This document shows positions 1,553 through 14,930 of a stretch of 64,000 bases of DNA, piece by piece; positions within the stretch are counted from its first letter, which is position 1; each line of letters begins with the position of its first letter. The translations under genes and the position numbers were made by a program. The DNA comes from Eubacterium sp. (GTDB taxonomy: Bacteria > Bacillota > Clostridia > Lachnospirales > Lachnospiraceae): contig JAFUBZ010000021.1 in the NCBI GenBank assembly GCA_017459945.1, positions 62,001-126,000 of the forward strand, read 5' to 3'. The notes below the pieces were generated by a model. It was not told where the DNA came from and searched no databases. It saw only the letters and a program-made list of their open reading frames with translations.

Positions 1553-2908
1553 ATGGCATCTCAGACAGCCGGGAAGGATACCTCTCTCGGACGTACGTTT
1601 TTTTCATATGTGTTCCCAAACATCCTGGGAATGATCGGCATATCCGCATATATCCTGGCGGATACTTTTTTTATTTCTGTCGCAGAAGGTGCGAATGGTC
1701 TGACGGCACTCAATCTGGTCCTGCCGGTTTACAGCATCATCTTTGCGATCGGCAATATGATCGCCGTTGGTTCTGCGACCCGTTTTCGGATTTTCAAAGC
1801 ACAGGAAAACCCTGAAGCAGACCATTATTTCACCAATGCCGTTGTCTTTTGTTTCCTGTTCAGTATTCCGTTTCTACTCATCGGGTTATTGTTTCCGCAG
1901 GGCCTGGTTACACTTCTAGGTGCGGATGAAGTAATCATCCCTCTGGCCGCTCCGTATTCTAGGATCTTCATGCTGTTCACCCCGTTTTTTATGTGGACTT
2001 ATGTGGCAAATGCCTTTGTCAGAAATGACAATGCGCCAAAAGTTGCGATGGCTGCTACACTCATCAGCAGTCTCTTTAACATCGTCATGGACTATGTCCT
2101 GATGTTCCCGCTTCATTTGGGTATGCGCGGTGCGGCACTTGCGACCGCGATCTCTCCAATCATCGGGATCATCATCTGTGCTACCCACATTTTTTCAAAA
2201 AGGAGCTCGATCCGATTCATAAAAACACGTCCGTCTTTGATCAGACTGTTCCGCTCCTGTCAGCTCGGTGTATCCGCCATGATCGGTGAGCTGGCACAGG
2301 GTGTGACCACGCTTTCATTTAATTTCCTGATCCTGTCGATCACCGGAAATGTCGGTGTGGCAGCTTACGGCGTGATTGCCAATATCGCTTTTGTCGGGAA
2401 TGCGATCTTTAACGGTCTTTCCCAGGGTTCACAGCCTCTTTTCTCATACTATTACGGCAAAAAAAGAACCGGCGATGTCGGCCGTCTTTTGCGGCTTACC
2501 ATCCTGACCGGTCTTGTTCTTGCTGTACTTGTACTTCTGGTAACAAATCTCTTTGCAGATCCGCTGGTTGCCATCTTTAATTCGGAAAACAACCCTGCCA
2601 TGGCAGATCTGGCAGTTGTCGGCATGCATCTTTACTTTATCGGATATCTTTTTGCTGCAGTCAACATTGTCGCCTGTGGTTATCTCGGGGCAACGGAAGC
2701 TGCTACATGGTCTTTTATCACATCTCTTTCAAGAGGTCTGATCGCCATTCTCCTTTTTGCGTTTATCCTGTCAAAGCTTTTTGCGATGACCGGCATCTGG
2801 CTGGCGTTCCCGGCCGCAGAGGCTGTGACGCTGATCCTTTCTGTCATTGCCATGGGGCATTGGCGAAAACACCTTTTTCTTTCCCTTTTTTCTTCTCCAA
2901 CTCCTTAA
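1553..2908 (+). CDS. MATE family efflux transporter
   Basis: 451-residue polytopic membrane protein with about twelve hydrophobic segments arranged in two similar halves, the size and pattern of MATE Na+/H+-coupled exporters. Visible family-like stretches are ADTFFISVAEGANGLTALNL near residue 40 and FNGLSQGSQPLFSYYYGKKR near residue 285, where the second half repeats the Q-P...Y-G pattern. Exports cationic drugs or metabolites; the substrate cannot be read from sequence. Monocistronic behind its own promoter. Its last 65 bases overlap, on the opposite strand, the end of the LysR gene at 2844-3788. Confidence 0.9.
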   Translation: MASQTAGKDTSLGRTFFSYVFPNILGMIGISAYILADTFFISVAEGANGLTALNLVLPVYSIIFAIGNMIAVGSATRFRIFKAQENPEADHYFTNAVVFCFLFSIPFLLIGLLFPQGLVTLLGADEVIIPLAAPYSRIFMLFTPFFMWTYVANAFVRNDNAPKVAMAATLISSLFNIVMDYVLMFPLHLGMRGAALATAISPIIGIIICATHIFSKRSSIRFIKTRPSLIRLFRSCQLGVSAMIGELAQGVTTLSFNFLILSITGNVGVAAYGVIANIAFVGNAIFNGLSQGSQPLFSYYYGKKRTGDVGRLLRLTILTGLVLAVLVLLVTNLFADPLVAIFNSENNPAMADLAVVGMHLYFIGYLFAAVNIVACGYLGATEAATWSFITSLSRGLIAILLFAFILSKLFAMTGIWLAFPAAEAVTLILSVIAMGHWRKHLFLSLFSSPTP

Positions 2909-3788
2909 TCACGCGATCGAGCTGTTTCATGAAAATCGGGATTGCCGGATTATAATTGCTGCGATTCCATGCTGCCACCAGACTGGGATCCCATTTCATC
3001 TTTTCCATCTCATATGCCTTAATATACGGATTGAATCTCAGCATATTTCTCGAATCCAGAATCGTGATTCCTTTTCCCGTTTCTGTACTTAACATCATAT
3101 CATAAAGAGAAGGCGCATATTTGATATTGGGATAAAACCCCCTTTCTTTACACGCATCAATAATCAGTTCCGATGATTCCAGACAGTCTTCTCGTGAAAT
3201 CAGAATAAACACCTCATCCCGACAATCTGCCAGTGTCACACGATCTTTTGATGCCAGATGATGATAACGATTCATCATCAGATAATCACGACTGTGTTCC
3301 ACATGTTTTCTAATCAGATAATCCTTTTGCGCGACGGAAAAATGAACCGTGAATGCAATATCCAGCGCACTGCTGTACAGCTTATTCTCCAGTTCCTCAA
3401 AGGAGCAGTTTTCGAACATGATCTCCACATAAGGATGCTGCTGCTCAAAAAAAGATATGATCAAAGGCATAAAGTCGGAGACATATGTTCCGTCCAGAAT
3501 TCCTATTCTTAAGTCTCCGTTAATTCCTTTTTGAATTTGCTGTGCTGTAGAAACAGCTCCCTGATACTGCTCATATACGTCCGCCCATTGCTCCTCCAGC
3601 GACCTGCCCGCCGGTGTCAATGTAATGGAACGTCCATGCCTGATAAACAGCTGCAGATTCAGCTCTTCCTCCATATTTAAAATCTGTCTGCTCAACGTCG
3701 GCTGTGAAACACCAAGCTGGTCTGCTGCCTTTGTGAAATTCAGAGTTCTGGCAACCGTCAGAAACCATTTGATTTGTGAAATCGTCAT
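2844..3788 (-). CDS. LysR family transcriptional regulator (paralogue of the one at 8412)
   Basis: 314 residues. Residues 1-60 form the LysR winged helix (ISQIKWFLTVARTLNFTKAA, then QLGVSQPTLSRQI); the rest is a periplasmic-binding-protein-like effector domain starting about residue 90. It resembles the regulator at 8412-9326 along its whole length, for example a shared ESSELI segment and WDPS near the end, so the two arose by duplication and bracket the symporter/methyltransferase island. Transcribed away from that island's last small gene, convergent with the MATE exporter and overlapping its end by 65 bases. The effector is unknown; the likely targets are the intervening genes. Confidence 0.88.
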   Translation of the reverse strand: MTISQIKWFLTVARTLNFTKAADQLGVSQPTLSRQILNMEEELNLQLFIRHGRSITLTPAGRSLEEQWADVYEQYQGAVSTAQQIQKGINGDLRIGILDGTYVSDFMPLIISFFEQQHPYVEIMFENCSFEELENKLYSSALDIAFTVHFSVAQKDYLIRKHVEHSRDYLMMNRYHHLASKDRVTLADCRDEVFILISREDCLESSELIIDACKERGFYPNIKYAPSLYDMMLSTETGKGITILDSRNMLRFNPYIKAYEMEKMKWDPSLVAAWNRSNYNPAIPIFMKQLDRVIKELEKKKGKEKGVFANAPWQ

Positions 3789-3874
3789 TTTATATCAGAA
3801 ACCTTTCAAAAATCCAACATTCACGGGAATCCAATTTCAGTATACCACAATTCATGCCGGATGAGAGACAAGCT

Positions 3875-3898
3875 ACGGGACTGCCAAGGCAGTCCCGT
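3875..3898 (-). terminator. Hairpin at the end of the symporter operon
   Basis: Perfect 10-bp stem ACGGGACTGC / GCAGTCCCGT with a 4-base loop, 10 bases beyond the stop of the 36-residue gene. No U-tract follows, so termination is inferred from stem strength and position only. Confidence 0.55.
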
Positions 3899-3908
3899 AA
3901 ACGCAATT

Positions 3909-4019
3909 TTATTGATCATCATCTTTGTTTTTCTTCTGGAGACTCCATATTCCCTGGAGTACTACAAAGAAGACCATTGCTAAAACGATGCAAAGCATCC
4001 AGATTTGTGTCATACTCAT
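3909..4019 (-). CDS. Tiny single-span membrane protein (36 aa) of the symporter operon
   Basis: Short frame starting at ATG 4017-4019 with a GGGGGA ribosome site that lies in the end of the preceding 46-residue gene (3 bases between them). Product starts MSMTQIWMLCIVLAMVFFVV and ends in a charged tail KKNKDDDQ: one membrane helix of ~18 residues and a short cytoplasmic tail. I do not recognise the family. Its place directly behind a sodium:solute symporter, with tight spacing and good ribosome sites, suggests a small accessory subunit or regulator of that transporter, as seen for other SSS-family carriers. Confidence 0.7.
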   Translation of the reverse strand: MSMTQIWMLCIVLAMVFFVVLQGIWSLQKKNKDDDQ

Positions 4020-4022
4020 AGC

Positions 4023-4163
4023 TTATTCCCCCTTCTCATCTGCGACATCGATCAATTCGTCGCTGTCTCCAAATTTATTGACTTTCCCAATCAGAAATCC
4101 CACTGCCGTGATCGCAAAGACCATAATAGCGGCACTGACGATTGTACTAACGACCATATGCAT
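4023..4163 (-). CDS. Small single-span membrane protein (46 aa) of the symporter operon
   Basis: Starts at ATG 4161-4163 with a strong AAGGAGG 9 bases upstream; 39 bases downstream of the symporter stop. The product has one hydrophobic helix (residues about 5-26: VSTIVSAAIMVFAITAVGFL) and an acidic tail ending DVADEKGE. No family recognised. With the next gene (36 aa) it forms a pair of tiny membrane proteins transcribed after the symporter; likely accessory subunits. Too short for usual ORF length filters, so easily missed. Confidence 0.75.
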   Translation of the reverse strand: MHMVVSTIVSAAIMVFAITAVGFLIGKVNKFGDSDELIDVADEKGE

Positions 4164-4202
4164 AAAAGGCACCTCCTTAAATCTTATTCCAGGTAACACA
4201 CG

Positions 4203-5690
4203 CTACGCTTCTGCGCTTGCCTCTGCCTTTTTCCTGCCTTTCCCTTTATACAGTCCCGGTTTACCCGGCAGAACTGCGGTCAGGATGACACCAAGAACAA
4301 CTGCAAAGATTAGTGATACATAGTTAACATGGAGCTGAGCGAACGCAGGATTGCCTGCTGCCAATGTGTTTTGCAATCCGAATGTAGACCAGATACATAC
4401 TGCGATCCAGGTGATGACAAATGTAATGATCGTCGCCATCTCACTTCTCTTCCACCACATACCGATCACAGCCATGACAAAGACCGGTATACCAAAGGAG
4501 AATATCCAGTTAACCATCTCAACCGGTGCAGGCTGCAGATTACAGATTACGATCGAGATGACCGTGATGATCACGATGATGATACGGATCAGACGCGTCT
4601 GCTGCTTTTCTGTCGCATGCGGATTCTTAATGCCATACATGTCATGTGTGATAACCGTTGACGGCGCCAATGCCATAACTGCAAAACTGGAAAGGTCGAC
4701 ACCCAGGAATCCTGCTGCAAGCAGTGCCACAGCCCACGGCGGAAGCAGATCTTTTAACATTGCCGGGGTCATGTTCAGTGTACCGGCATTACGATATACG
4801 ACAATGGAGAACGCTGCTACACCGATCAATGCCGGAATAATACAGAACATACCGTTTACCGGACCTGCAAACCAAAGGGATTTCTTTACCTCTTTATTGC
4901 TCTTAGCCGTCGCAACCGGCTGATAACCTGTCTGCGCCATACCATGGAATAAAGATGCACCAACAGCTGTCGGGATCGCAAATCCGATAATCAGCTGTCC
5001 ATTTCCAAACATGCTGGTGTACCACGGTGTCTCACTCGCAAGAATGTTTGCTTCAACACCATCCCATCCTCCAGGAAGTGAAAAGCACAGGCAGACCAGA
5101 ACGACGATCAAAGATACATACATCACAACTGCATTGATCAGGTTCAGCCATGCAATCTCTTTCATGCCGGCCAGAAGCACATACAGGCATGCGATGATAC
5201 CACCAATCACTGCACATACCATATAGGACCAGCCGGTCAGGAATGCGAGGGTAACCGCGATCGTTTCGACTTCCAGTGCACACATGGAAATACCAAGTGC
5301 TGCATTGATTGAAGCCACAAGTGCTCCCGACTTCTTACCAAAAATATGTGCCAGAAACTCGCCGACCGTCTTTGCTCCAGACCGGCGGATCCATGGGCCG
5401 GTGAACTGTGTGATAACGACCATCATGACAACGCAGGCGATTGAGAACCATACTGCGATAACCCCCATTGCGCCGGCATTCTGACTGGTTCCCCAGTTGT
5501 GGGCCGATCCCAGCAATGTTAAAGCCAGCGTGACGCCCACGAGCGATGCCGGCAATCCGCTTCCCGCAAAAGCAAAGCCGCCGGCTTCTTCACTGCCTCT
5601 TTTTTTATTCTTTCGTGCGATGATCGAACTGACGATGATAATGGTCGCAAGTTCATAAATAATAACCGCTATGATTGCACCCCAATTCAT
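4203..5690 (-). CDS. Sodium:solute symporter (SSS family)
   Basis: 495-residue integral membrane protein with about 13 hydrophobic segments, beginning with a helix (MNWGAIIAVIIYELATIIIV) and ending in a basic tail rich in Lys. Contains GAKTVGEFLAHIFGKKSGAL, matching the SSS pattern around TM3 (R..T..E/D..), and the glycine-rich core GVTLALTLLGSAHNWGTSQN near residue 55. It would import a small organic solute with Na+. Divergent from the methyltransferase-like genes at 5945 and 7117 and followed by two tiny membrane proteins, so the solute is probably the substrate of those enzymes (inference). Confidence 0.88.
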   Translation of the reverse strand: MNWGAIIAVIIYELATIIIVSSIIARKNKKRGSEEAGGFAFAGSGLPASLVGVTLALTLLGSAHNWGTSQNAGAMGVIAVWFSIACVVMMVVITQFTGPWIRRSGAKTVGEFLAHIFGKKSGALVASINAALGISMCALEVETIAVTLAFLTGWSYMVCAVIGGIIACLYVLLAGMKEIAWLNLINAVVMYVSLIVVLVCLCFSLPGGWDGVEANILASETPWYTSMFGNGQLIIGFAIPTAVGASLFHGMAQTGYQPVATAKSNKEVKKSLWFAGPVNGMFCIIPALIGVAAFSIVVYRNAGTLNMTPAMLKDLLPPWAVALLAAGFLGVDLSSFAVMALAPSTVITHDMYGIKNPHATEKQQTRLIRIIIVIITVISIVICNLQPAPVEMVNWIFSFGIPVFVMAVIGMWWKRSEMATIITFVITWIAVCIWSTFGLQNTLAAGNPAFAQLHVNYVSLIFAVVLGVILTAVLPGKPGLYKGKGRKKAEASAEA

Positions 5691-5727
5691 AAAATATACC
5701 CCTTTCTTTCCATGGTACGCAGTGCTG

Positions 5728-5857
5728 CCTACTGCAAATTTCGTGCGTCGATTTCGTTTATAAAAATTCTATAAAACTATTATCTGTTTGCCAAATAAAG
5801 AAATTGCATAGGGGTATCCATCTTTACTATCGCGATTTTCTCCGCTCCTATTGCAAA
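5728..5857. repeat. Repeated CCTAYTGCAAA motif in the divergent control region
   Basis: CCTACTGCAAA at 5728-5738 and CCTATTGCAAA at 5847-5857 in direct orientation, with a related ATTGCATAGG in reverse at 5803-5812. The second copy covers the -35 of the rightward promoter. Such spaced repeats could be binding sites for one of the two LysR proteins; this is inference. Confidence 0.45.
5766..5794 (-). promoter_or_regulatory. Promoter of the symporter operon
   Basis: Minus strand TTGGCA (5789-5794), 17 bases, TAGAAT (5766-5771), 76 bases before the symporter ATG. Confidence 0.65.
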
Positions 5858-5880
5858 GAAAAACGACTATCCGATAGAAT
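5851..5880 (+). promoter_or_regulatory. Promoter of the first methyltransferase-like gene
   Basis: TTGCAA (5851-5856), 18 bases, TAGAAT (5875-5880). The -35 overlaps the CCTATTGCAAA motif and the -10 overlaps the small palindrome CTATC-C-GATAG (5867-5877), consistent with activator control. Confidence 0.6.
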
Positions 5881-5944
5881 GACAGTAGCTGATGTGAAAC
5901 ATAAAAGCAAAATCATCAACCGTGTTATAAGGAGGAAATGAACC

Positions 5945-6937
5945 ATGATGACACCGAAAGAAAACTTTTTGGCAACCATCCGCGGCGAGAATCCGGATCG
6001 TTTCGTAGACCAGTATGGATATATGCAGCTGATATTTGATCCGGTGATGTGGAAGATTACCGGTATGCCTTTCACTATGAAACCGGGTGAATGTGTCGTT
6101 AACGGTTGGGGGGTTACCGTTAACTTCAGAGAAGATGCTCCGGGGCCAATGCCGGTTCATAATGATGAACTGACCGTATTAAAGGATATTACAGAATGGA
6201 AAGATGTTGTCAAAGCTCCTGAAGTCGTACTTGGCGACGAAGCTTGGGCTGACGCTGTCAAAGAAGCCGAATCCATTGACCGAGACCAGTATCTGGTCGG
6301 TTGCTTCACAGCTCCCGGTATTTTTGAAAAGATTCATTATCTGATGGGTATGGAAGAAGCCTTTTATGCGCTTTACGATGAACCGGAAGCACTGAAGGAA
6401 TTAATTGATTTTATGGCAGACTGGGAAATCAAGCTGGCAGCGGAACAGATTAAATATTTAAAACCCGATGTCGTATTCCATCATGATGACTGGGGCAGTC
6501 AAATCAATTCCTTCATGGATCCGGAGATGTTTGATGAACTCCTTACGCCGGCTTATAAACGCGTGTACGGATTCTATAAAGAACACGGTCTTCTGGTTGT
6601 TCATCATTCCGATTCCTATGCAGCCAATCTGGTCCCATCCATGATTGAAATGGGAATCGATGTATGGCAGGGATGCTTGTCAACCAACAACCTGCCGGAG
6701 CTGATCAGGGAATACGGTGGACAGATTTCCTTCCAGGGCGGCATTGACAGCACGCGCATTGATCATGTTGACTGGACAAAAGAAGAAGTCCGTACTGTGG
6801 TAGAAGAAGCATGCCGCGCAAACGGAACCAAATTCTTTATCCCCAGCAATACTATGGGCGGTCCCGGCAGCATTTATCCGGGTGTCTATGAGACGATTTC
6901 GGAAGAAATCGACAGAATGAGTAAAATCATGTTTTAA
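5945..6937 (+). CDS. Uroporphyrinogen decarboxylase-fold methyltransferase-like protein, copy 1
   Basis: 330 residues, the length and pattern of the UroD/MtaA/CmuA superfamily, whose non-heme members move methyl groups between corrinoid proteins and thiols or folates. Visible features are HHDDWGSQ (179-186), VVHHSDSYA (218-226) and FQGGID near residue 255. The zinc ligand motif HxC of MtaA/MtbA is replaced by HHS, so it is not a standard CoM-type methylase; no other heme gene is nearby, so it is not HemE. Start has AAGGAGG 8 bases upstream. No corrinoid protein or reactivase is in the window, so the partner must be elsewhere. Distinct from, but functionally paired with, the 417-residue protein at 7117. 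Confidence 0.82.
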   Translation: MMTPKENFLATIRGENPDRFVDQYGYMQLIFDPVMWKITGMPFTMKPGECVVNGWGVTVNFREDAPGPMPVHNDELTVLKDITEWKDVVKAPEVVLGDEAWADAVKEAESIDRDQYLVGCFTAPGIFEKIHYLMGMEEAFYALYDEPEALKELIDFMADWEIKLAAEQIKYLKPDVVFHHDDWGSQINSFMDPEMFDELLTPAYKRVYGFYKEHGLLVVHHSDSYAANLVPSMIEMGIDVWQGCLSTNNLPELIREYGGQISFQGGIDSTRIDHVDWTKEEVRTVVEEACRANGTKFFIPSNTMGGPGSIYPGVYETISEEIDRMSKIMF

Positions 6938-6979
6938 ATAGTTCTTTCATATCGTTCATCAGATTCACAAGAAGCATAC

Positions 6980-7008
6980 GAGGCTCCGATTCATCGGAGC
7001 CTCTTCTA
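6980..7008 (+). terminator. Terminator-like hairpin between the two methyltransferase-like genes
   Basis: Perfect stem GAGGCTCCGA / TCGGAGCCTC (6980-6989, 6994-7003), 4-base loop, followed by TTCT only. May attenuate rather than fully stop transcription into the gene at 7117. Confidence 0.6.
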
Positions 7009-7116
7009 TACGGTTTCTGTATAATTCCATTCCTTAACTTCTATAGTTATATGAAACCGGCTTTGTTACAATGGCATCAGTAAAAACAACTCTGCTCTTT
7101 ATTCAGGAGGTCTATT

Positions 7117-8370
7117 ATGGAAGGAATGCATCCAAAATTCTTAGAGCGCACCAAATTGTTAGATGATACTGTTGCATGCAAACATACTGATCGCATCATG
7201 ACTGCTCCCTTTTATACCTATTTACCGATCCTGTTATATCAGGAAACAACTATTGCGGATACGATGCAGGACTGGCGAAATGCCATCCCTTCCTATTATC
7301 GGTATCATCGGGAATTTCAGCCGGATCTGGCTTATGGGCCCGAAGCGATCTTCCCCGGCAGCGCTTTAAAAGCATTGGACTGTAAATTTGTCCGTGTCCC
7401 GGGCGTACATTTCCCGGAAAAAAACATTGGCTTTCAGGTATTGGATCATGAGGACGGATATATGTCTCCTGATGAATACCTGGAATATGCAGAAGATCCA
7501 ACCGGATTCTTAATGAAAAAAATCCTGCCACGTCATTTCGGCAAACTGGAAGGCCTTGCTTCCCTTGATTTTTCCATGGCAATCTGGCACGGTATGCTCT
7601 ATACAACCCTTGGTGCACTGAACCCACAGGTCAAAACCGCTTTTGACGCGATCATGGACTGTGCGGGCATTATGGGCGAACAGGTTGCGGCAGACGGCGA
7701 ATTCTATGTCACCATGATGCAGGAGGGCTTCCCTTCCGGCGCGGATCTGGTTACTTCAGCTCCTTTTGATATTTTCAATGACACCCTGCGTGGATTCATG
7801 AATATCACCATGGACCTTTACGAATGTCCGGATGAAGTTCTGGAAGCCGTCAATGCCGCTACAAAAATCCAGGTCCGTTATCTGAAAAACACGATCAAAT
7901 CCAGACCGATCAAAATCATTGGCTTTATGTTACACAATGGATTTGATATGTTTATGAGCAAAGAACAATTTGAAACCTTCTACTGGCCGGGCTTAAAGGC
8001 TTGTATTGATGTTTGCGTCGAAAACAATGTCATTCCTTGGATTTATGTGGAAGACAGCTACATGAACAAGCTGGATATCATTGAGCGCGATGTTCCCGAG
8101 AAAAAAGTCATCATGACCTTCACCGGAACCAATGATATGAAAATAGTCAAAGAGCGTTTTGGCGGAAAAATCTGCTTAAAAGGCGGATTGTCCGAAAATG
8201 TTATTGAATTTGGTTCAAAAGAAGATGTTATAAAAATGGTAAAAAATGCCATTGACATCTATGCGCCGGGCGGTGGGCTGATCCTGGATGTGGATGTCAC
8301 GTTAGATAATGCACCGGCTGAAAACATTCACGCTCTGTTTGATACTGCAAGAGACTATATGAAATATTAA
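7117..8370 (+). CDS. Uroporphyrinogen decarboxylase-fold methyltransferase-like protein, copy 2
   Basis: 417 residues, longer than copy 1 and only distantly similar. The C-terminal half carries the superfamily pattern: PWIYVEDSYMNKLDII (where many members have a metal-binding His/Cys), MTFTGTND, then a glycine-rich end APGGGLILDVD. Substitution of the usual zinc ligands suggests a substrate other than methylcobalamin:thiol transfer, or a different metal site. Ribosome site AGGAGG 8 bases before the ATG. Followed after 41 bases by a LysR gene in the same direction, so regulator and enzyme are probably co-transcribed. Confidence 0.8.
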   Translation: MEGMHPKFLERTKLLDDTVACKHTDRIMTAPFYTYLPILLYQETTIADTMQDWRNAIPSYYRYHREFQPDLAYGPEAIFPGSALKALDCKFVRVPGVHFPEKNIGFQVLDHEDGYMSPDEYLEYAEDPTGFLMKKILPRHFGKLEGLASLDFSMAIWHGMLYTTLGALNPQVKTAFDAIMDCAGIMGEQVAADGEFYVTMMQEGFPSGADLVTSAPFDIFNDTLRGFMNITMDLYECPDEVLEAVNAATKIQVRYLKNTIKSRPIKIIGFMLHNGFDMFMSKEQFETFYWPGLKACIDVCVENNVIPWIYVEDSYMNKLDIIERDVPEKKVIMTFTGTNDMKIVKERFGGKICLKGGLSENVIEFGSKEDVIKMVKNAIDIYAPGGGLILDVDVTLDNAPAENIHALFDTARDYMKY

Positions 8371-8411
8371 GTTTCGGATATATTTGCATTATCACCACAG
8401 GAGACAAGATT

Positions 8412-9326
8412 ATGACCTTTGCGCAGATTAAGTATTTTATTACAGTCGCAAAATGTTTGAGCTTTACCAAGGCTGCTGAACAATTGTTCTTAACGCAGCC
8501 TGCACTAAGTCGTCATATCAGCAGGATGGAAGAAGAGCTCAATGTACAGTTGTTTATCCGTACCGGCAGCGGCATCCGCCTTACACCGGCAGGAAGCGCG
8601 CTTTATCTTGGTATGACAGATTTGTATGAACAGTATCAGGAACAGGTCAGAAAGGCACATAAGATTCAGGAAGGCATGATCGGAAGCTTATCGATCGGAT
8701 TCCTGAACAATATGAACCTGGCTGATTTTATGCCACTCGTCTACCGGGAACTAAAAGAGAAATATCCGAATGTAGACATTCTCCCCGTCAGGGCAAGCTT
8801 TGATGACCTGATCAGCGGCGTCTATTCCGGTAAATACGATCTGATCTTCACCGTTCAATTCGAAGTGGTTGATAAGGAAAGTCTGTTGTATCAATATGTG
8901 CATCATTCAAAAGATCACATTGTGATGAGCCGTTTTCATCCCCTTGCAGGCAAAGCGCATGTCACGCTGGATGATGTAAAAGATGAACTGTTTGTCATGA
9001 TCTCCCCGGAAGACAATCCGGAATCATCTGAACTCATTTTTAATATCTGTAAGGAACATGGTTTTGTCCCCACTGTAAAATTTGCAAGAACCATGGAGGA
9101 ACAGGCTCTCTGGATTGAATCCGGCATGGGTGTAACTATCCTGGATTCCTGCTGCACTCTTCGTATGAATCCGGACATTCTATTCTTTGAAATAGACAGC
9201 AACTGGGATCCTTCTATGGTCGTTTGCTGGAACCAGCAAAACTATAACCCCATGATTTCTGTATTTGTCAAAAAGATGAATGAAGTCTTAAATCTGACTG
9301 ATGAAGAATTACATGGCATTTCATAA
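8412..9326 (+). CDS. LysR family transcriptional regulator (paralogue of the one at 2844)
   Basis: 304 residues. N-terminal winged helix (AQIKYFITVAKCLSFTKAAE, LTQPALSRHI) and a C-terminal effector-binding domain. Clearly homologous to the protein at 2844-3788 throughout (ESSELIF, GVTILDS, NWDPS, NYNP all shared or nearly so). Last gene of the rightward methyltransferase-like operon. The presence of two related regulators around one transporter and two enzymes suggests that each senses a different intermediate or that they act together on the 5691-5944 control region. Confidence 0.88.
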   Translation: MTFAQIKYFITVAKCLSFTKAAEQLFLTQPALSRHISRMEEELNVQLFIRTGSGIRLTPAGSALYLGMTDLYEQYQEQVRKAHKIQEGMIGSLSIGFLNNMNLADFMPLVYRELKEKYPNVDILPVRASFDDLISGVYSGKYDLIFTVQFEVVDKESLLYQYVHHSKDHIVMSRFHPLAGKAHVTLDDVKDELFVMISPEDNPESSELIFNICKEHGFVPTVKFARTMEEQALWIESGMGVTILDSCCTLRMNPDILFFEIDSNWDPSMVVCWNQQNYNPMISVFVKKMNEVLNLTDEELHGIS

Positions 9327-9331
9327 AAAAA

Positions 9332-9366
9332 CTGACGCAGGCGTTTACTCCTGCGTCAGCTTTTCG
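9332..9366. terminator. Bidirectional terminator between convergent genes
   Basis: Perfect 10-bp stem CTGACGCAGG / CCTGCGTCAG (9332-9341, 9350-9359). Leftwards it is followed by seven T; rightwards by CTTTT. The stem also encodes the last residues (L-T-Q-E-stop) of the minus-strand RyR gene. Confidence 0.85.
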
Positions 9367-10052
9367 ATCTCTTCTTTCAGGACGGCATCCCAGATGCCGT
9401 CCTTTTCTTTTTCATTCTGCGGCAGATCCGCATACGGGATCAGAAGGTGATGGCGGCGTTTTGCATCATCACGCACCGGATCATACTTCCAGTGATTGAT
9501 GTAGTGGAAACGGCACCAGCGGATGTGCTCAAGCTCCCACAAAACATGCTCATCTGTCCCACTTTCGGAAAGCCGTTTTTCAATCCAGTAATGATCAGCC
9601 CTCGCGATGTTCGATCCCTTTTTAAAGCCATCCAAAGCAACCCATTCCTTTTCCATTTCCACTTCATAGTCACCGGATACATGCCGATTACCATATCGAA
9701 GCGCATAGTCATAGTTAAACAGCTTTGCTTTCCGGTAAATCGCTTCTCTTTTGATCTGATCCTCTGTCAGGATCTCATCCAGCATTCCAAACACCACGAC
9801 AGCGTTTCCGGCATAGATCCGGTCAAGCTCCATTGGCTGCGGACTCCAGCAGTGAACCTTACCGTCCGGATTCCTATAAAGGATCTCCTGCAGCAATTCA
9901 ATATACGGCTCTTTTGTCAGGATCACGCGGTTCATCCCGGCGATCAGATCCAGCGATTCTCTGCAATCCTCTTCATGAACGATCACACGATCCTGATTTT
10001 CAAACTGCAGCTCTTTCAGGAATTCCTTCTGTACAATATCACAGCCCCACAC
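9345..10052 (-). CDS. TrkA-N/RyR domain protein (C-terminal half of split channel-like gene)
   Basis: 235 residues if the GTG at 10050-10052 is used, but the frame is open up to 10199 and the missing 49 codons encode the nucleotide-binding beta-alpha-beta unit (AIIGYEKVGQAIF), so this start would give a damaged domain; a CTG at 10182-10184 with GGAGGG 8 bases upstream is the only other candidate. The C-terminal third (about residues 165-215: LWELEHIRWCRFHYINHWKY followed by DPVRDDAKRRHHLLIPY) is a RyR domain, the ~50-residue fold first seen in ryanodine receptors and found in bacteria next to TIR and RCK domains. Middle part is a second RCK/TrkA-N-like region. Third gene of the TIR-nSTAND operon. 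Confidence 0.72.
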   Translation of the reverse strand: MWGCDIVQKEFLKELQFENQDRVIVHEEDCRESLDLIAGMNRVILTKEPYIELLQEILYRNPDGKVHCWSPQPMELDRIYAGNAVVVFGMLDEILTEDQIKREAIYRKAKLFNYDYALRYGNRHVSGDYEVEMEKEWVALDGFKKGSNIARADHYWIEKRLSESGTDEHVLWELEHIRWCRFHYINHWKYDPVRDDAKRRHHLLIPYADLPQNEKEKDGIWDAVLKEEIEKLTQE

Positions 10053-10199
10053 ATGATATTCGATCTTCTGATCCAGGCGATAAATATTGTTCAGATACGC
10101 ATAGCGAAAAATCGCCTGTCCGACTTTTTCATATCCAATGATCGCAATCTGTACCGGTTCTGCGTTCTCTGTCTCCTCAAACAGATTCTGGTCCCTCCA

Positions 10200-10751
10200 T
10201 TATTTTCTTGCCGTCAGATAAAATACATTGAAAAAATGCACATTTCCGCTTGCCTCGAGCAGAAACGGATCGATCTCATTCAATAAAATGTAAACAGGTT
10301 TCCCGGAAAATGCATCCTTCTGACCCGAATACAACCGGATGTTCTGCAGATCATCCTGATACATGATGATGTGATTTTCTGTTTTTTCTGCCTTTTTCCC
10401 CGGTGCGAAATAACCATGGCGAAGTGATTTTGCCAATCGCATTCCTTCTTCGGTATCACTATAGACTGCTGTTGAATCCTTATATCTGCGGGCAAAAAAA
10501 CGATCGATTGCACCAGCCAGGCTGCTTAGGATCACGATCAGGACACTCGTTGTAACGACCACAGCCGTGATCTTCGCAAGCAAGATTATGATATTACTGT
10601 TGTCTGTGACAGGATTGACAAAATACAGGGCGCCGGATGCATAGATCGATTCCCAGAAGCCCATATGCGAAAGTCCGAAGTATCCGATCATGCCAAGCAC
10701 AAAAGGTACCCAGAAAAACCGTTTGATCACCTGTTTAAAAATCTCAGCCAT
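10200..10751 (-). CDS. Two-TM channel-like protein (N-terminal half of split RCK/RyR gene)
   Basis: 183 residues ending at the TAA 10200-10202. Hydrophobic helices at about residues 13-30 and 53-80 bracket a pore-loop-like stretch (ESIYASGALYFVNPVTDNSN), as in 2-TM K+-channel-like proteins; after a basic segment (FFARRYKD) follows a cytosolic domain with TAVYSDTEEG and HIIMYQDD, resembling an RCK/TrkA-N fold. Start ATG has GGAGAA 8 bases upstream and lies 18 bases after the NTPase stop. Its C-terminus runs in frame, through the stop, into the RyR protein, so it is probably a fragment of one gene. Confidence 0.68.
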   Translation of the reverse strand: MAEIFKQVIKRFFWVPFVLGMIGYFGLSHMGFWESIYASGALYFVNPVTDNSNIIILLAKITAVVVTTSVLIVILSSLAGAIDRFFARRYKDSTAVYSDTEEGMRLAKSLRHGYFAPGKKAEKTENHIIMYQDDLQNIRLYSGQKDAFSGKPVYILLNEIDPFLLEASGNVHFFNVFYLTARK

Positions 10752-10769
10752 ATCTGTTTTCTCCTGAAC

Positions 10770-13028
10770 TTACTCCTGCAGGGTACGCTCGCTCGACGCG
10801 TCCATCAGTCTGCCGTACAGATTCTCTCTGGTCATATGTGCCATAAACGCATATCCGATCAGGATGCAGGTCATGATCATTTCCACCACGATCAGATACC
10901 GCGGGATCACCGGGTTAAACGCCCAGATCACCAGATGGAAAAAGATAAATGCAATCCCCATCAGTGCACATTTCAACCCGTAATTGCGCAGTTCCATCCG
11001 GCTCGCGCGCTGATAGGTACCATCCAGAAGAAATGCACCGAAAAATCCCATCACTGCAAGGAACGCGCCAATACACAGCATGTTATGCGGATATGCAAAC
11101 ATCGTGATCAGCGTTCCGAACATGATGATCACATAGGTGATCTTACAGCCCTTTTCTTTTTTGCCGCGGCAAAACCGGAACACTTTATTGTACATGCAGA
11201 AGAGGTAGATCAGGCTCATCTCGGTTCCGAACAGCGGGAACAGACTTCTGACATCGCCGTATGCATTCCAGGCGCTCAGCCCATGTGTCCAGGGATTGTA
11301 TCCCAGATTGACAAATGCATACGCGATCACTGCCAGGATCGCAAACGTGATCGTCAGATTGCGGTAAAAGCCGGACTGATGCACTCTCTTAAAGAATTCC
11401 CGTTTCGCCCGGATTCCTTCCGCCTTGCTGGTATCAAGATATTCCGAAAGATAGATATCCAATGCACCTCTGACATTCCGGTCGATATTCGAACTGCTGT
11501 AGTTTAAGTATGACTGAGCGATAAAATCATGCGCGATCTCATATTCCAGATCCGAATCCTTCACGGTCTGTCTGATCAGCTGCAGATCAACAAGCTCCTC
11601 AAGGACCTTTGTCAGCTGCTTATGACCTTCTGGCGAAAGGTAGTCAGGATTCAGACCAAAAATCAGGTCTGTCTTCTTCATGACCACCTGGTGCATCCGC
11701 GCCGTCGAAAGAAGATAGAGAATCCGCGACGCGTTATAATAATCATCGGTTGACGTCAGCTGAATGTCAAAGTACTGGTTTAAAAGCTCATAGCTTTCCA
11801 GATCATACATTTCCAAAAGCATCTCATCCGTAGCATTTTTTCTTTTTCTTTCATACTCTGCCATATGATAGAAGATCTGCTGCTCGATCAAAGGCTCCGT
11901 CTTGTGCTTTTCATAATAGTGTTTACCGTCTTCGCCAAGCTGCAGCTCACACTTGCGCTCAAGCTTTGTCATGCCAAAACGATCGTCGGCATTTTCCTGC
12001 GTATGCGCATCATTCTGATTTTCACAATAAAAAATGGTATTCCCGACCTGTTCGAGTACTGCATCTTCAAATGCTGCACCGATATGTTCTAAATGAATGT
12101 GCTGGTTGGTCTTGATCAAACCACCATTCCACTCATCCGCTGCCTTCTCCTGGCTCTTATCCGACAGGATAAAATAATTCTTATCCGAATCCTTGATCGT
12201 GCTGACCAGATCATTCAGAATGCCGGATTCATTCCCATTCTGACGGTCTCTTCCGAGTGCCTTCAGGTTGTTGACATTGAATTCCTTCATGAAATCTGCC
12301 AGATACTCTTCGCGCATCGACAGGATCAGCGCAGTGTTTTTACGCGCAATGAGCATGATCAGGTCACGAACTTCCCGCTTCTTTTGTTCATCCAGAAAGA
12401 AGTAGCGTTCAAACTGGTCCAGGATAAATACGACCTTCTTATTCCTGACTTTTTCTTCCAGACTGTTTTTTACATTTTCACCAAGATGTGTTTCCAGGAT
12501 CATTTTGAAATTCGGATAGTTATCGGTCATATCGTAGATCAGATAATCATCCCCGTACATCTTTCTGAAAAACGACAGAATCGTCGATTTTCCACATCCT
12601 GATGTTCCAGTCAAACAGACCGCCTGTTTAATCGTTTTCTGCGGAAAAACGAGATCCTCCAGTGTCTGCCTGATATAAGCAGCTTCTGCTTCGCGGGAAA
12701 GAATGTCGTCACTTTCAAGGTCCTTTACAACCGCGATGTTATACAAGCCCAGAAACGAAAACCCTTCCGTCCTGCGATAGGCTTCGATCCGATTCTTTGT
12801 CGCCCGACTTTTCAACAGAAGCACACCTACTACCAGGATCACAAGCACTGCCTCCGGGATCAGGCGCAGCCCCTGGGGTACAAATGGAAGCATGGTATCT
12901 AAGACAGATGCTGCCGTCACTCCGACAAGGAGTCCTGCCAGAATGTGAAAGGTTTTATCCTTCACTCCATATACATTGTATCCCGTCTTCTTTTTTGCCT
13001 GTACTTTCTTTTTTTCAATCGCCTGCAT
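10770..13028 (-). CDS. Membrane-anchored nSTAND-like P-loop NTPase
   Basis: 752 residues. Two membrane helices near residues 28-48 and 57-73, then a P-loop NTPase: Walker A GTSGCGKST (141-149), Walker B VVFILDQFE (199-207), and SMREEYLADF about residue 235, the Arg-containing motif that follows Walker B in STAND-like (nSTAND) ATPases. A helical/winged-helix region follows (about 400-530, LIRQTVKDSDLEYEIAHDFI resembles STAND C-terminal winged helices), then about six membrane helices (560-735). Architecture: membrane-bound signal switch. It overlaps the upstream TIR gene by 14 bases and is followed after 18 bases by the channel-like gene, so the three are translated as an operon. Best guess: sensor/relay of a defence or nucleotide-signalling system; not a characterised family to my knowledge. 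Confidence 0.8.
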   Translation of the reverse strand: MQAIEKKKVQAKKKTGYNVYGVKDKTFHILAGLLVGVTAASVLDTMLPFVPQGLRLIPEAVLVILVVGVLLLKSRATKNRIEAYRRTEGFSFLGLYNIAVVKDLESDDILSREAEAAYIRQTLEDLVFPQKTIKQAVCLTGTSGCGKSTILSFFRKMYGDDYLIYDMTDNYPNFKMILETHLGENVKNSLEEKVRNKKVVFILDQFERYFFLDEQKKREVRDLIMLIARKNTALILSMREEYLADFMKEFNVNNLKALGRDRQNGNESGILNDLVSTIKDSDKNYFILSDKSQEKAADEWNGGLIKTNQHIHLEHIGAAFEDAVLEQVGNTIFYCENQNDAHTQENADDRFGMTKLERKCELQLGEDGKHYYEKHKTEPLIEQQIFYHMAEYERKRKNATDEMLLEMYDLESYELLNQYFDIQLTSTDDYYNASRILYLLSTARMHQVVMKKTDLIFGLNPDYLSPEGHKQLTKVLEELVDLQLIRQTVKDSDLEYEIAHDFIAQSYLNYSSSNIDRNVRGALDIYLSEYLDTSKAEGIRAKREFFKRVHQSGFYRNLTITFAILAVIAYAFVNLGYNPWTHGLSAWNAYGDVRSLFPLFGTEMSLIYLFCMYNKVFRFCRGKKEKGCKITYVIIMFGTLITMFAYPHNMLCIGAFLAVMGFFGAFLLDGTYQRASRMELRNYGLKCALMGIAFIFFHLVIWAFNPVIPRYLIVVEMIMTCILIGYAFMAHMTRENLYGRLMDASSERTLQE

Positions 13029-14280
13029 TCGCTTTGTCCTCTAAATCCCAGATCGTGTTTCTGCATCGTTCCAGAGAAACGCCGGCTTCTCTGACCCCGT
13101 GTGCAAATGCCTGCTCATAACAGACGATCGCATTTCTAAGTTCCTTTTTTTCTTCGTAGATCCATCCGAGTGCATAGGTCGCAAGCGGGATCGCATCTTC
13201 GCCATAGGCAACCTGTCTGAGCAGCTTCTCTGCCTCTTCTTCTTTATCTTCCTCAGATCTGATCAACATTGCATAATTATAGATGGCTGCAGGATACTTC
13301 TTGTCTTTTGCTCTTTTGTAATAATATTTTGCCTTTTCTCTGTCTGCTTCAATTCCGCCGAATCCGTTGTGATAAATCCAGCCAAGCGCATTCAGAGCGG
13401 GCAGATAATTCTTTTGGGCGGCTTTCTCATATTCCTGTATTGCCGCTTCATAATCTCCGTCATTTTCCCTGAGATTCCCCAGACGATACTGTGCCGGTGC
13501 CAGCTCTGCAGTTGCTGTCTTCTCATAATATTCCCGTGCCTTTGCAAGAAAAAACTGCCTGATCTCTTCCGGTTCTTTTCTGCCTTCCGTATCCAGTCCA
13601 TATTCTGTGATCAAAGTCAGATCTTTTGCGCATCGCTCAAAAATGTCTCCAAGATTGTACCCTGCATGCAGATAACCGCCTTCAAATGCTTCCTGATACA
13701 AAAGATACGCTTTTGCCAGATTCTGCGGTTCGGAATACATGCCCTGCTCATAGATCAGTGCCAGTTCGTTGGTCGCCGCCTGGGAACCCTCCTGGCTTTT
13801 TCGTTCCACTTCCTCTACATAATCTCTGTCAGATGGATATTCTACCTTGCTTTGCAGCATTTGATCGGCCATTTTCGTCAGCACCGCATCAAAATACTCC
13901 ATGTTTGCAGACACACCATTATACCGGGGCAGCATTGCCATGCTTTCCGGCAGATCCTCCGGAAAGACAAAATTGCGCATCAACACCGGGATGATGTTTT
14001 TCCCGCATTGCATCGCATGCTCAATCTCTCTGCGCACCCAATCTTCCGGATCCCCGATACAGCGGTCCAGTCCGTTCGGCGGCAAAACTACAAGGACATC
14101 CTCACACTTTTCGATCACACCTAAAAGCTTTTCATTGAAGTCTCCGGAGCGCAGGGATTCCACATCATAAAAGACACGGTATCCCATACGGGTAAGCCGC
14201 TCATACAAAAGTGCCGCCAGACTTTCCCCGCCTTCGCGGCGGTAACTGACAAATATCTGATAATCAAGATTGTAGTCCAT
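13015..14280 (-). CDS. TIR domain protein with Sel1-like repeats
   Basis: 421 residues from the ATG at 14278-14280, chosen because AAGAGG lies 6 bases upstream; a longer frame to 14310 has no ribosome site. Residues 1-140 form a TIR domain: YQIFVSYRRE at the start, GYRVFYDVESLRSGDF as box-like strand/loop, and WVRREIEHA with Glu85 at the position of the catalytic Glu of NAD-cleaving TIRs. Residues about 150-410 hold Sel1-like/TPR helical repeats (for example NALGWIYHNG, YALGWIYEEK), a common sensor or scaffold region. Enzyme role (NADase or cyclic ADP-ribose maker) is inference from the retained Glu. First gene of the TIR-NTPase-channel operon, 46 bases after an Rrf2 gene. Confidence 0.87.
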   Translation of the reverse strand: MDYNLDYQIFVSYRREGGESLAALLYERLTRMGYRVFYDVESLRSGDFNEKLLGVIEKCEDVLVVLPPNGLDRCIGDPEDWVRREIEHAMQCGKNIIPVLMRNFVFPEDLPESMAMLPRYNGVSANMEYFDAVLTKMADQMLQSKVEYPSDRDYVEEVERKSQEGSQAATNELALIYEQGMYSEPQNLAKAYLLYQEAFEGGYLHAGYNLGDIFERCAKDLTLITEYGLDTEGRKEPEEIRQFFLAKAREYYEKTATAELAPAQYRLGNLRENDGDYEAAIQEYEKAAQKNYLPALNALGWIYHNGFGGIEADREKAKYYYKRAKDKKYPAAIYNYAMLIRSEEDKEEEAEKLLRQVAYGEDAIPLATYALGWIYEEKKELRNAIVCYEQAFAHGVREAGVSLERCRNTIWDLEDKANAGD

Positions 14281-14326
14281 ATCAATCCTCTTAAAAAAAT
14301 GAAAGCTCAAAAAGATGTCTTATAGC

Positions 14327-14761
14327 CTAGATCATATACATCCCGATCTCTGCCGCATTCTGATCCAAAACATCCTGCAATGTGATCCCTGAAAGATAGT
14401 CAATGATCAGATCCCGCAGGCCCTCCCAGATCGGCAGTGTCCTGCAATAGGACGCTCTCGGACACTGGTTCTCTTCATCCTCAAGGCAGTCGATCACATT
14501 CAGGCCGCCTTCCGCGCAGGAAACGATTTCCGCAATTGTGATCTCAGAAGGATGACGCGCAAGCTTATATCCGCCCTTTTGTCCTTTTGCAGTCCGTAAA
14601 AGATGTGCCTGGTTCAAAAGCGGTATGATCTGCTCCATATACTTCTTGGAGATTCCCTGTCTTTTTGTGATCTCTTTTAACGCAATAAATTCTTCTCCGT
14701 CATGCTCTGCGAGATCGACCATCATTCTAAGGGCATAACGTCCGCGTGTTGATATTTTCAT
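14327..14761 (-). CDS. Rrf2 family regulator, copy 1 (CymR/IscR-like)
   Basis: 144 residues from the ATG at 14759-14761, with AAGGAG 5-6 bases upstream (a GTG two codons earlier sits on the ribosome site). Winged helix in residues 1-80 (STRGRYALRMMVDLAEH, GISKKYMEQIIPLL, GGYKLARHP), then the cysteine motif C-x7-C-x5-C (CLEDEENQCPRASYC) that in IscR-type members binds an Fe-S cluster. Lies downstream of cysK and separated from it by a terminator, so it likely controls cysteine synthesis like CymR or Fe-S genes like IscR. A paralogue sits at 19698. Runs in the same direction as the TIR operon. Confidence 0.88.
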   Translation of the reverse strand: MKISTRGRYALRMMVDLAEHDGEEFIALKEITKRQGISKKYMEQIIPLLNQAHLLRTAKGQKGGYKLARHPSEITIAEIVSCAEGGLNVIDCLEDEENQCPRASYCRTLPIWEGLRDLIIDYLSGITLQDVLDQNAAEIGMYMI

Positions 14762-14871
14762 AGCCACTCCTTTTTTATGTAAAAGCCTACTTCTTCCGTA
14801 TACTTATATGTTCATTATACGTGTTTCCTGTCAAAAAACAACTCTTAGCATATCGGCATAATCACGAAAAA

Positions 14872-14897
14872 GCAGGTCCTGCTTTCACAGAACCTGC
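14872..14897 (-). terminator. Terminator after cysK
   Basis: Minus strand stem GCAGGTTCTG / CAGGACCTGC (one mismatch), followed by TTTTT; begins 34 bases after the cysK stop. Confidence 0.85.
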
Positions 14898-14930
14898 CCA
14901 CTCATGGTAACAGAAGAAATGGTTTCATGA

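Follow-up and report, generated by a model that had tools for sequence, protein, structure and literature searches.

The window, by which we mean the whole 64,000-nucleotide stretch of DNA analysed, contains an operon of three genes from a gut-type bacterium. The ORF listing places a TIR-Sel1 gene (gene 1), a STAND gene (gene 2) and a third gene (gene 3) on the minus strand. Genes 1 and 2 overlap by 14 bases, and a gap of 18 bases lies between genes 2 and 3. The features of the locus are as follows.

14327..14767, minus strand: Rrf2-type regulator gene (Pfam Rrf2, 2.1e-37).
13015..14280, minus strand: gene 1, a TIR domain with Sel1/TPR repeats, 421 amino acids, ATG start (ORF, Pfam, phmmer).
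10770..13028, minus strand: gene 2, a predicted membrane nSTAND NTPase, 752 amino acids (ORF, nSTAND1 match, hydropathy, orthologues).
10200..10751, minus strand: N-terminal part of gene 3, 183 codons, with two hydrophobic helices, a re-entrant-like segment and the first RCK fold (ORF; structure model of the L005 protein).
10200..10202, minus strand: premature in-frame TAA, codon 184 of gene 3 (a tyrosine codon in L005 and L006).
9345..10199, minus strand: C-terminal remnant of gene 3, 284 codons in the same frame, with the second RCK fold and the RyR domain (ORF; Pfam RyR).
9332..9359, minus strand: stem-loop with a run of seven T after it where gene 3 ends, overlapping its stop codon (sequence; the stem is listed on the other strand).

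The stem-loop is likely to be the terminator of the operon. At the other end, 46 bases separate the Rrf2 gene from the ATG of the TIR gene downstream, with which it is possibly co-transcribed, and it is adjacent to the TIR gene also in the related loci L005 and L006. The genes around the operon are metabolic, as are the neighbourhoods of related loci for the most part. A PADLOC scan of 83 neighbours, which had no control set, found restriction-modification genes at a few loci, and a search for RNA elements found none. Positions 2872-9348 of the window hold two URO-D-type genes and a LysR regulator which have no counterpart at that place in genome G230, and which form an insertion of approximately 6.5 kb relative to L098.

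The TIR domain of gene 1 occupies approximately residues 8-138. The protein matches the Pfam families TIR_2 (E 1.7e-12) and Sel1 (E 2.6e-8), both above the Pfam cut-offs, and its TIR domain matches that of SARM1 with a phmmer E-value of 1.4e-26. The glutamate at residue 85, counted from the ATG, aligns with the catalytic glutamate of SARM1 and is found in a WVxxEI..A..C motif. As judged from these alignments, gene 1 is a SARM1-like TIR-Sel1 protein and a candidate NAD+-consuming enzyme.

The product of gene 2 matches the Pfam nSTAND1 family at 28.6 bits, against a cut-off of 27.1. It has a Walker A motif (GTSGCGKST) and a Walker B motif (VVFILDQFE), and these P-loop and Walker B motifs are invariant across six orthologues. 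Hydropathy indicates about two hydrophobic helices in the N-terminal part and about five to six in the C-terminal part of the protein. Orthologues are present in L005-L009 at 48-100% identity. The structure prediction of gene 2 has a mean pLDDT of 42 and is usable for secondary structure only. Gene 2 is predicted from these features to be a membrane nSTAND NTPase. The first-pass annotation had described three co-directional genes with the spacing given above, a TIR domain with a catalytic-type Glu85 and Sel1 repeats in gene 1, and Walker motifs with membrane helices at both ends in gene 2; all of this is confirmed.

Gene 3 starts at 10751, and the reading-frame check shows a TAA in frame at 10202-10200. 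In L005 and L006 gene 3 encodes an uninterrupted protein of 468 amino acids, with a tyrosine at the position of the stop (TAT in L005, TAC in L006). The structure model of the intact L005 protein shows a pair of long helices separated by a short one, two Rossmann folds and a helical end; its confidence is moderate for the RCK part and low for the pore and the RyR domain. The best matches of its Rossmann part among solved structures are the RCK gating rings of CASTOR, KtrA, TrkA and GsuK, with a Z-score of about 12, while unrelated dehydrogenases score lower (Z 8-10). Relatives of gene 3 in L099 and L101 match the Pfam families TrkA_N and RyR directly, and a relative in L077 matches Ion_trans_2 and RyR. 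Intact gene 3 is, as modelled, an ion-channel-like protein with two helices, tandem RCK domains and a C-terminal RyR domain.

Alignment and tree divide the channel family into two clades, one with the potassium filter TVGYGD (clade II) and one without it. Gene 3 belongs to the clade without GYG; at the filter position it has YASGALYFVNPVTD instead of TVGYG. None of the PADLOC and NCBIfam models matches a channel of this clade. The earlier proposal that the channel depolarises the cell was a guess, because the clade of gene 3 lacks the GYG potassium filter. In L084 (6835-8751) and L091 (6280-8397) large CASTOR/POLLUX-like or TrkA_N-like proteins are encoded directly upstream of RyR channels, and these form channel-like pairs.

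Gene 3 had been annotated as one gene with two helices around a pore-loop-like segment, RCK-like folds and a RyR domain. The RyR domain is present and two RCK folds are supported by the model and the structure comparison, but the window does not hold them in one open frame. The TAA therefore cuts off the half with the pore helices and the first RCK fold from the half with the second RCK fold and the RyR domain in the window genome. Comparison of gene 3 between the window and L005 gives a dN/dS of about 0.07 in both halves, at a dS of about 0.6, so selection was maintaining the intact protein until recently. Since both halves have been under equal purifying selection, the stop is either recent or a variant of the draft assembly. 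Several other accounts of the stop were considered and rejected. Readthrough, recoding or a TAATG restart fails in that the sole ATG at this place is out of frame and its frame closes after seven codons. A restart further downstream fails in that the C-terminal remnant has no in-frame ATG, GTG or TTG ahead of the GTG at 10052. A natural split into two genes is found on an Arcobacter plasmid, where RCK and RyR are encoded by separate genes and the RyR gene has its own start; the remnant in the window has none, so a broken gene is favoured over a natural split.

It may instead be that the stop arose as an artefact in the sequencing or binning of the draft genome, and that the living strain has an intact gene. 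The difference is a single base in an assembly that is 64%-complete, and the low dN/dS in both halves would be expected on this account as well. Substitutions are, however, not the usual assembly error, and we consider an artefact improbable, if not negligibly so. A recent disabling of the gene 3 effector in the window genome forms part of the explanation that we find just probable below.

The gene 3 remnant matches the Pfam RyR family (PF02026) with an E-value of 1.8e-6 (28.5 bits, cut-off 27.4), and the intact L005 protein scores just below the cut-off at 26.7 bits. RyDEP is a phage anti-Thoeris protein with a RyR domain, it cleaves TIR signals, and its ligand residues are H75, W78, H100 and D117 (PMC13232231, a 2026 preprint). 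RyDEP and its phage homologues have been shown experimentally to bind 2'/3'cADPR, and most conserved homologues, other phage members among them, bind without hydrolysis (PMC13232231). In animals, the R12 domains of ryanodine receptors bind adenine ligands (PMC13232231). The RyR domain of gene 3 aligns without gaps to chain 35tm_A, which we take to be RyDEP because the positions of these four residues fit. All four residues that bind 3'cADPR/ADPR in the phage protein are kept in gene 3. In the channel family, the clade of gene 3 included, the H/W/H residues are conserved in 40 of 41 members and the aspartate in 28 of 41.

RyR domains also occur outside this channel family. Stand-alone RyR proteins of 96-97 amino acids are encoded beside or near TIR genes in L106 (about 8302-8574) and L107 (about 8234-8506), which might serve the host as signal sponges, hydrolases or adaptors. 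A second family of RyR-domain proteins lacks a pore and has an HD-like motif (SLFHDVGYP); it is found at L103:8019-9755, L104:9366-11102, L064:10371-12032 and L097:9557-11260, and at three of these four places a TIR gene is adjacent or close by.

The channel family was collected by similarity to gene 3 alone, whatever the context, and is present in 43 of 397 genomes of the Lachnospiraceae. TIR domains were mapped afterwards in the channel-bearing genomes, with a distance limit of 4 kb. A TIR domain lies within this distance of 11 of the 22 non-GYG channels, against 0.16 expected, and of ten of 21 when the seed locus is left out; the number for the GYG clade is one of 19 channels, the placement of the long-branched L091 and L092 being uncertain. 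The Poisson p-value of this linkage (3e-17) assumes random placement and overstates the significance, because conflict genes cluster. The excess of TIR genes beside non-GYG channels is large. Most TIR partners are co-directional with the channel, with gaps of 2-140 bases, and all of them keep the catalytic glutamate. Their repeats or sensors are varied and include Sel1, TPR, LRR, WD40-like, MORN and STAND. On the channel tree the TIR-linked label has to change at least 7-8 times, and an adjacent TIR gene is absent in L053, L054 and L055, which are the closest relatives of gene 3 outside the window genus. The recurrence of the RyR-channel family beside TIR genes suggests that TIR-made signals gate RyR-domain channels. 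In L060 (8932-13340) a RyR channel, a TIR-LRR protein and a protein of a citrate/ion-transporter family are encoded co-directionally, and the last two genes overlap.

An unbiased search for the RyR family in 398 Bacillota genomes found it in ten. In nine of the ten, a TIR or DUF4062 gene adjoins the RyR gene or lies no more than about two genes away from it, a count in which the DUF4062 of G725 was assigned by sequence motif and the window was included via its STAND gene. DUF4062 (Swarozyc) is a TIR-like NADase (PMC13174449). In L105 a channel, a TIR protein and an AAA/RyR protein are encoded in one operon of a single-contig genome. The gene for a RyR protein overlaps a TIR-LRR gene in L103 and L104, and in L106 the stand-alone RyR gene is beside a TIR gene. 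A single protein in L102 (7814-10408), encoded near a TIR gene, combines a RelA/SpoT-like domain, a prokaryotic TRPM-type SLOG domain and RyR, and it may be an effector that makes alarmones and is read out by ADP-ribose signals. The RyR channel is accompanied by a single TIR-STAND-TPR protein in L056, L063 and L101 and by a DUF4062-STAND-TPR protein in L099. These fusions suggest that the separate TIR and STAND proteins of the window may be one functional sensor split in two.

The RCK and RyR genes of the Arcobacter plasmid, which belongs to another phylum, stand in a row with a DUF4062 gene, flanked by recombinases and with a type I restriction gene close by. This was the one RyR locus found in the plasmid searches, which also returned one potassium channel without evidence of RyR; a plasmid search for the L105 channel gave no relatives. 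In viral contigs, neither gene 3 nor an alignment of 19 family sequences found any relatives.

The exact trio of TIR, STAND and channel is confined to one genus, where it is found in the window, L005 and L006. L007 has a looser arrangement, with the channel about 5 kb downstream of STAND in a tract with a conjugation gene. The TIR-STAND pair is present in L005-L009, and the channel follows it directly in the window genus only. In L008, where the flanks of the pair are complete, the genome encodes no homologue of the channel, and neither does that of L009. The channel is therefore not obligatory, and the pair would be workable without it, through another effector or through loss of NAD+ alone. 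The three-part system of the first-pass annotation is present in the window genus, but it is rare and too narrow as a definition. Tested against chance co-occurrence, as the first-pass annotation had proposed, the link between TIR genes and the channel is upheld and lies far above chance. An unnamed domain of approximately 250 amino acids is fused to TIR in L008 (5948-7984) and to a GNAT domain encoded upstream of TIR in L009 (5544-6644), and it may be a module that swaps upstream of TIR-STAND.

Positions 10900-14900 of the window, which hold the Rrf2, TIR and STAND genes, are 97-100% identical to G230, a genome of another species, while the flanks, the channel gene included, are mostly 81-89% identical. 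This difference points to a recent exchange of Rrf2-TIR-STAND between species, with its boundary at the junction of STAND and channel. Between the window and L006 the STAND protein is 91% identical and the TIR protein 59-60%. Such fast turnover is typical of conflict genes.

We consider a Thoeris-like module the best explanation of the locus: ADP-ribose signals made by TIR would act on a RyR effector, here a channel, and this effector would have been disabled recently in the window genome; on the comparative evidence we hold this to be just probable. A trigger would be sensed by the Sel1 repeats together with the membrane-bound STAND ATPase, and these would assemble the TIR domain or turn it on. 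This SARM1-like domain would then consume NAD+ and produce an ADP-ribose-type signal (2'cADPR, 3'cADPR or ADPR), to be bound by the C-terminal RyR domain of gene 3. Binding would act through the tandem-RCK gating ring to alter the state of the two-helix pore, and the disturbed ion balance of the membrane would lead to growth stop or death of the infected cell. We infer in this scheme the identity of the signal, its binding by RyR, the gating, the ion and its direction, the anti-phage purpose and the order from STAND to TIR. A role in anti-phage defence is plausible. The earlier idea that a TIR signal is read by the RyR/RCK channel gains strong comparative support from the TIR enrichment, the Bacillota neighbours, the conserved ligand residues and the binding of 2'/3'cADPR by phage RyR proteins, but in the window the channel gene is broken by a stop, and the channel can be dispensed with, as in L008.

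The strongest rival is that TIR and STAND suffice and the channel is an accessory. STAND would sense and cluster TIR, TIR would deplete NAD+, and the channel would be unrelated or optional and its break inconsequential. The conservation of the pair in L005-L009, the restriction of a directly following channel to the window genus, the two genomes without a channel homologue, and the exchange of Rrf2-TIR-STAND alone are all consistent with such a complete two-protein system. Against it stand the strong TIR linkage of the channel family, which is independent of this locus, the purifying selection on gene 3 and the conserved ligand residues, and we regard it as rather doubtful. The RyR channel could also be a housekeeping protein regulated by ADP-ribose or adenine nucleotides, responding to stress or NAD status, its TIR linkage then reflecting metabolic signalling and not immunity. 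Clade II channels, with their TVGYGD filter, do lie among ordinary genes without TIR, the RCK rings of potassium channels can bind such nucleotides (the GsuK structure entries have NAD and ADP bound), and the adenine ligands of animal R12 domains (PMC13232231) fit as well. The non-GYG clade is patchy, however, with 22 loci in the 397 family genomes, and TIR partners with many different repeat sensors are the pattern of conflict systems, which makes a housekeeping role unlikely.

A further alternative concerns the direction in which the RyR domain acts. It could be an off-switch that hydrolyses or sequesters the TIR signal in the manner of RyDEP, and so ends or buffers signalling, instead of a receptor that the signal activates. 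The RyDEP catalytic pair, H75 and D117, is conserved in gene 3, and the stand-alone RyR proteins of L106 and L107 would suit such a function. Most conserved RyDEP homologues nevertheless bind without hydrolysis (PMC13232231), and the RyR domains of the family are fused to parts that resemble outputs (channel/RCK, RelA-SLOG and AAA). An off-switch is very unlikely in our view, and we retain the Thoeris-like module with a RyR receptor as the preferred reading.

If TIR signals do act on RyR channels, these would add an ion-channel class of effector to TIR immunity, one that works via the membrane and not by NAD+ loss or proteolysis. The locus behaves as immune genes do, with the exchange of TIR-STAND, the divergence of TIR (59% identity) against STAND (91%) and an apparently recently broken effector. 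An old question is whether ryanodine receptors are a direct target of cyclic ADP-ribose, and the locus would in that case also provide a tractable system in bacteria with which to address it; the recent RyDEP structure makes the RyR binding residues directly testable. A wider reading, which we put forward tentatively but take seriously, is that bacterial RyR domains are general receptors of TIR signals on many outputs, including RCK channels with or without a potassium filter, RelA/SpoT-SLOG, AAA and HD-like proteins. The R12 domain of animal ryanodine receptors might in that case have a bacterial cADPR-sensing channel module as its ancestor, or be related to one by common descent. A TIR-RyR channel pair was undescribed in the literature that we searched, which did not include the likeliest prior art (Yirmiya et al. 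2025, doi 10.64898/2025.12.03.692087).

Each part of the locus resembles a known system and differs from it in a particular way. Gene 1 is closely similar to the NAD+ hydrolase SARM1 in its TIR domain and catalytic glutamate, but it has Sel1 repeats in place of ARM/SAM and a separate STAND partner. Gene 3 shares a predicted two-helix pore and tandem RCK gating ring with GsuK, MthK and CASTOR, but it lacks the TVGYG filter and adds a C-terminal RyR domain. This domain is the same RyR/R12 domain as in RyDEP with the same four ligand residues; RyDEP is a phage counter-defence protein, whereas gene 3 is a host gene fused to a channel and linked to the TIR protein to which it probably listens. The DUF4062 NADases (Swarozyc, PMC13174449) are also found beside RyR-channel genes, in L099, L068 and the Arcobacter plasmid, but the window has a canonical TIR domain.

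The nearest comparison for the whole locus is with Thoeris, which consists of a TIR protein (ThsB) and an effector (ThsA). Thoeris types signal by 3'cADPR, 2'cADPR and His-ADPR. As in Thoeris, a TIR protein with a catalytic glutamate adjoins an effector that carries a domain capable of reading ADP-ribose signals, the sensor repeats on the TIR protein are varied, and TIR and effector are recurrently adjacent (half of the non-GYG channels within 4 kb). None of the three proteins has a Pfam, PADLOC or NCBIfam match to a SIR2-SLOG or macro sensor. The sensor of the effector here is instead a RyR domain, carried by a two-helix RCK channel, and the window operon differs further from Thoeris in its extra membrane STAND ATPase.
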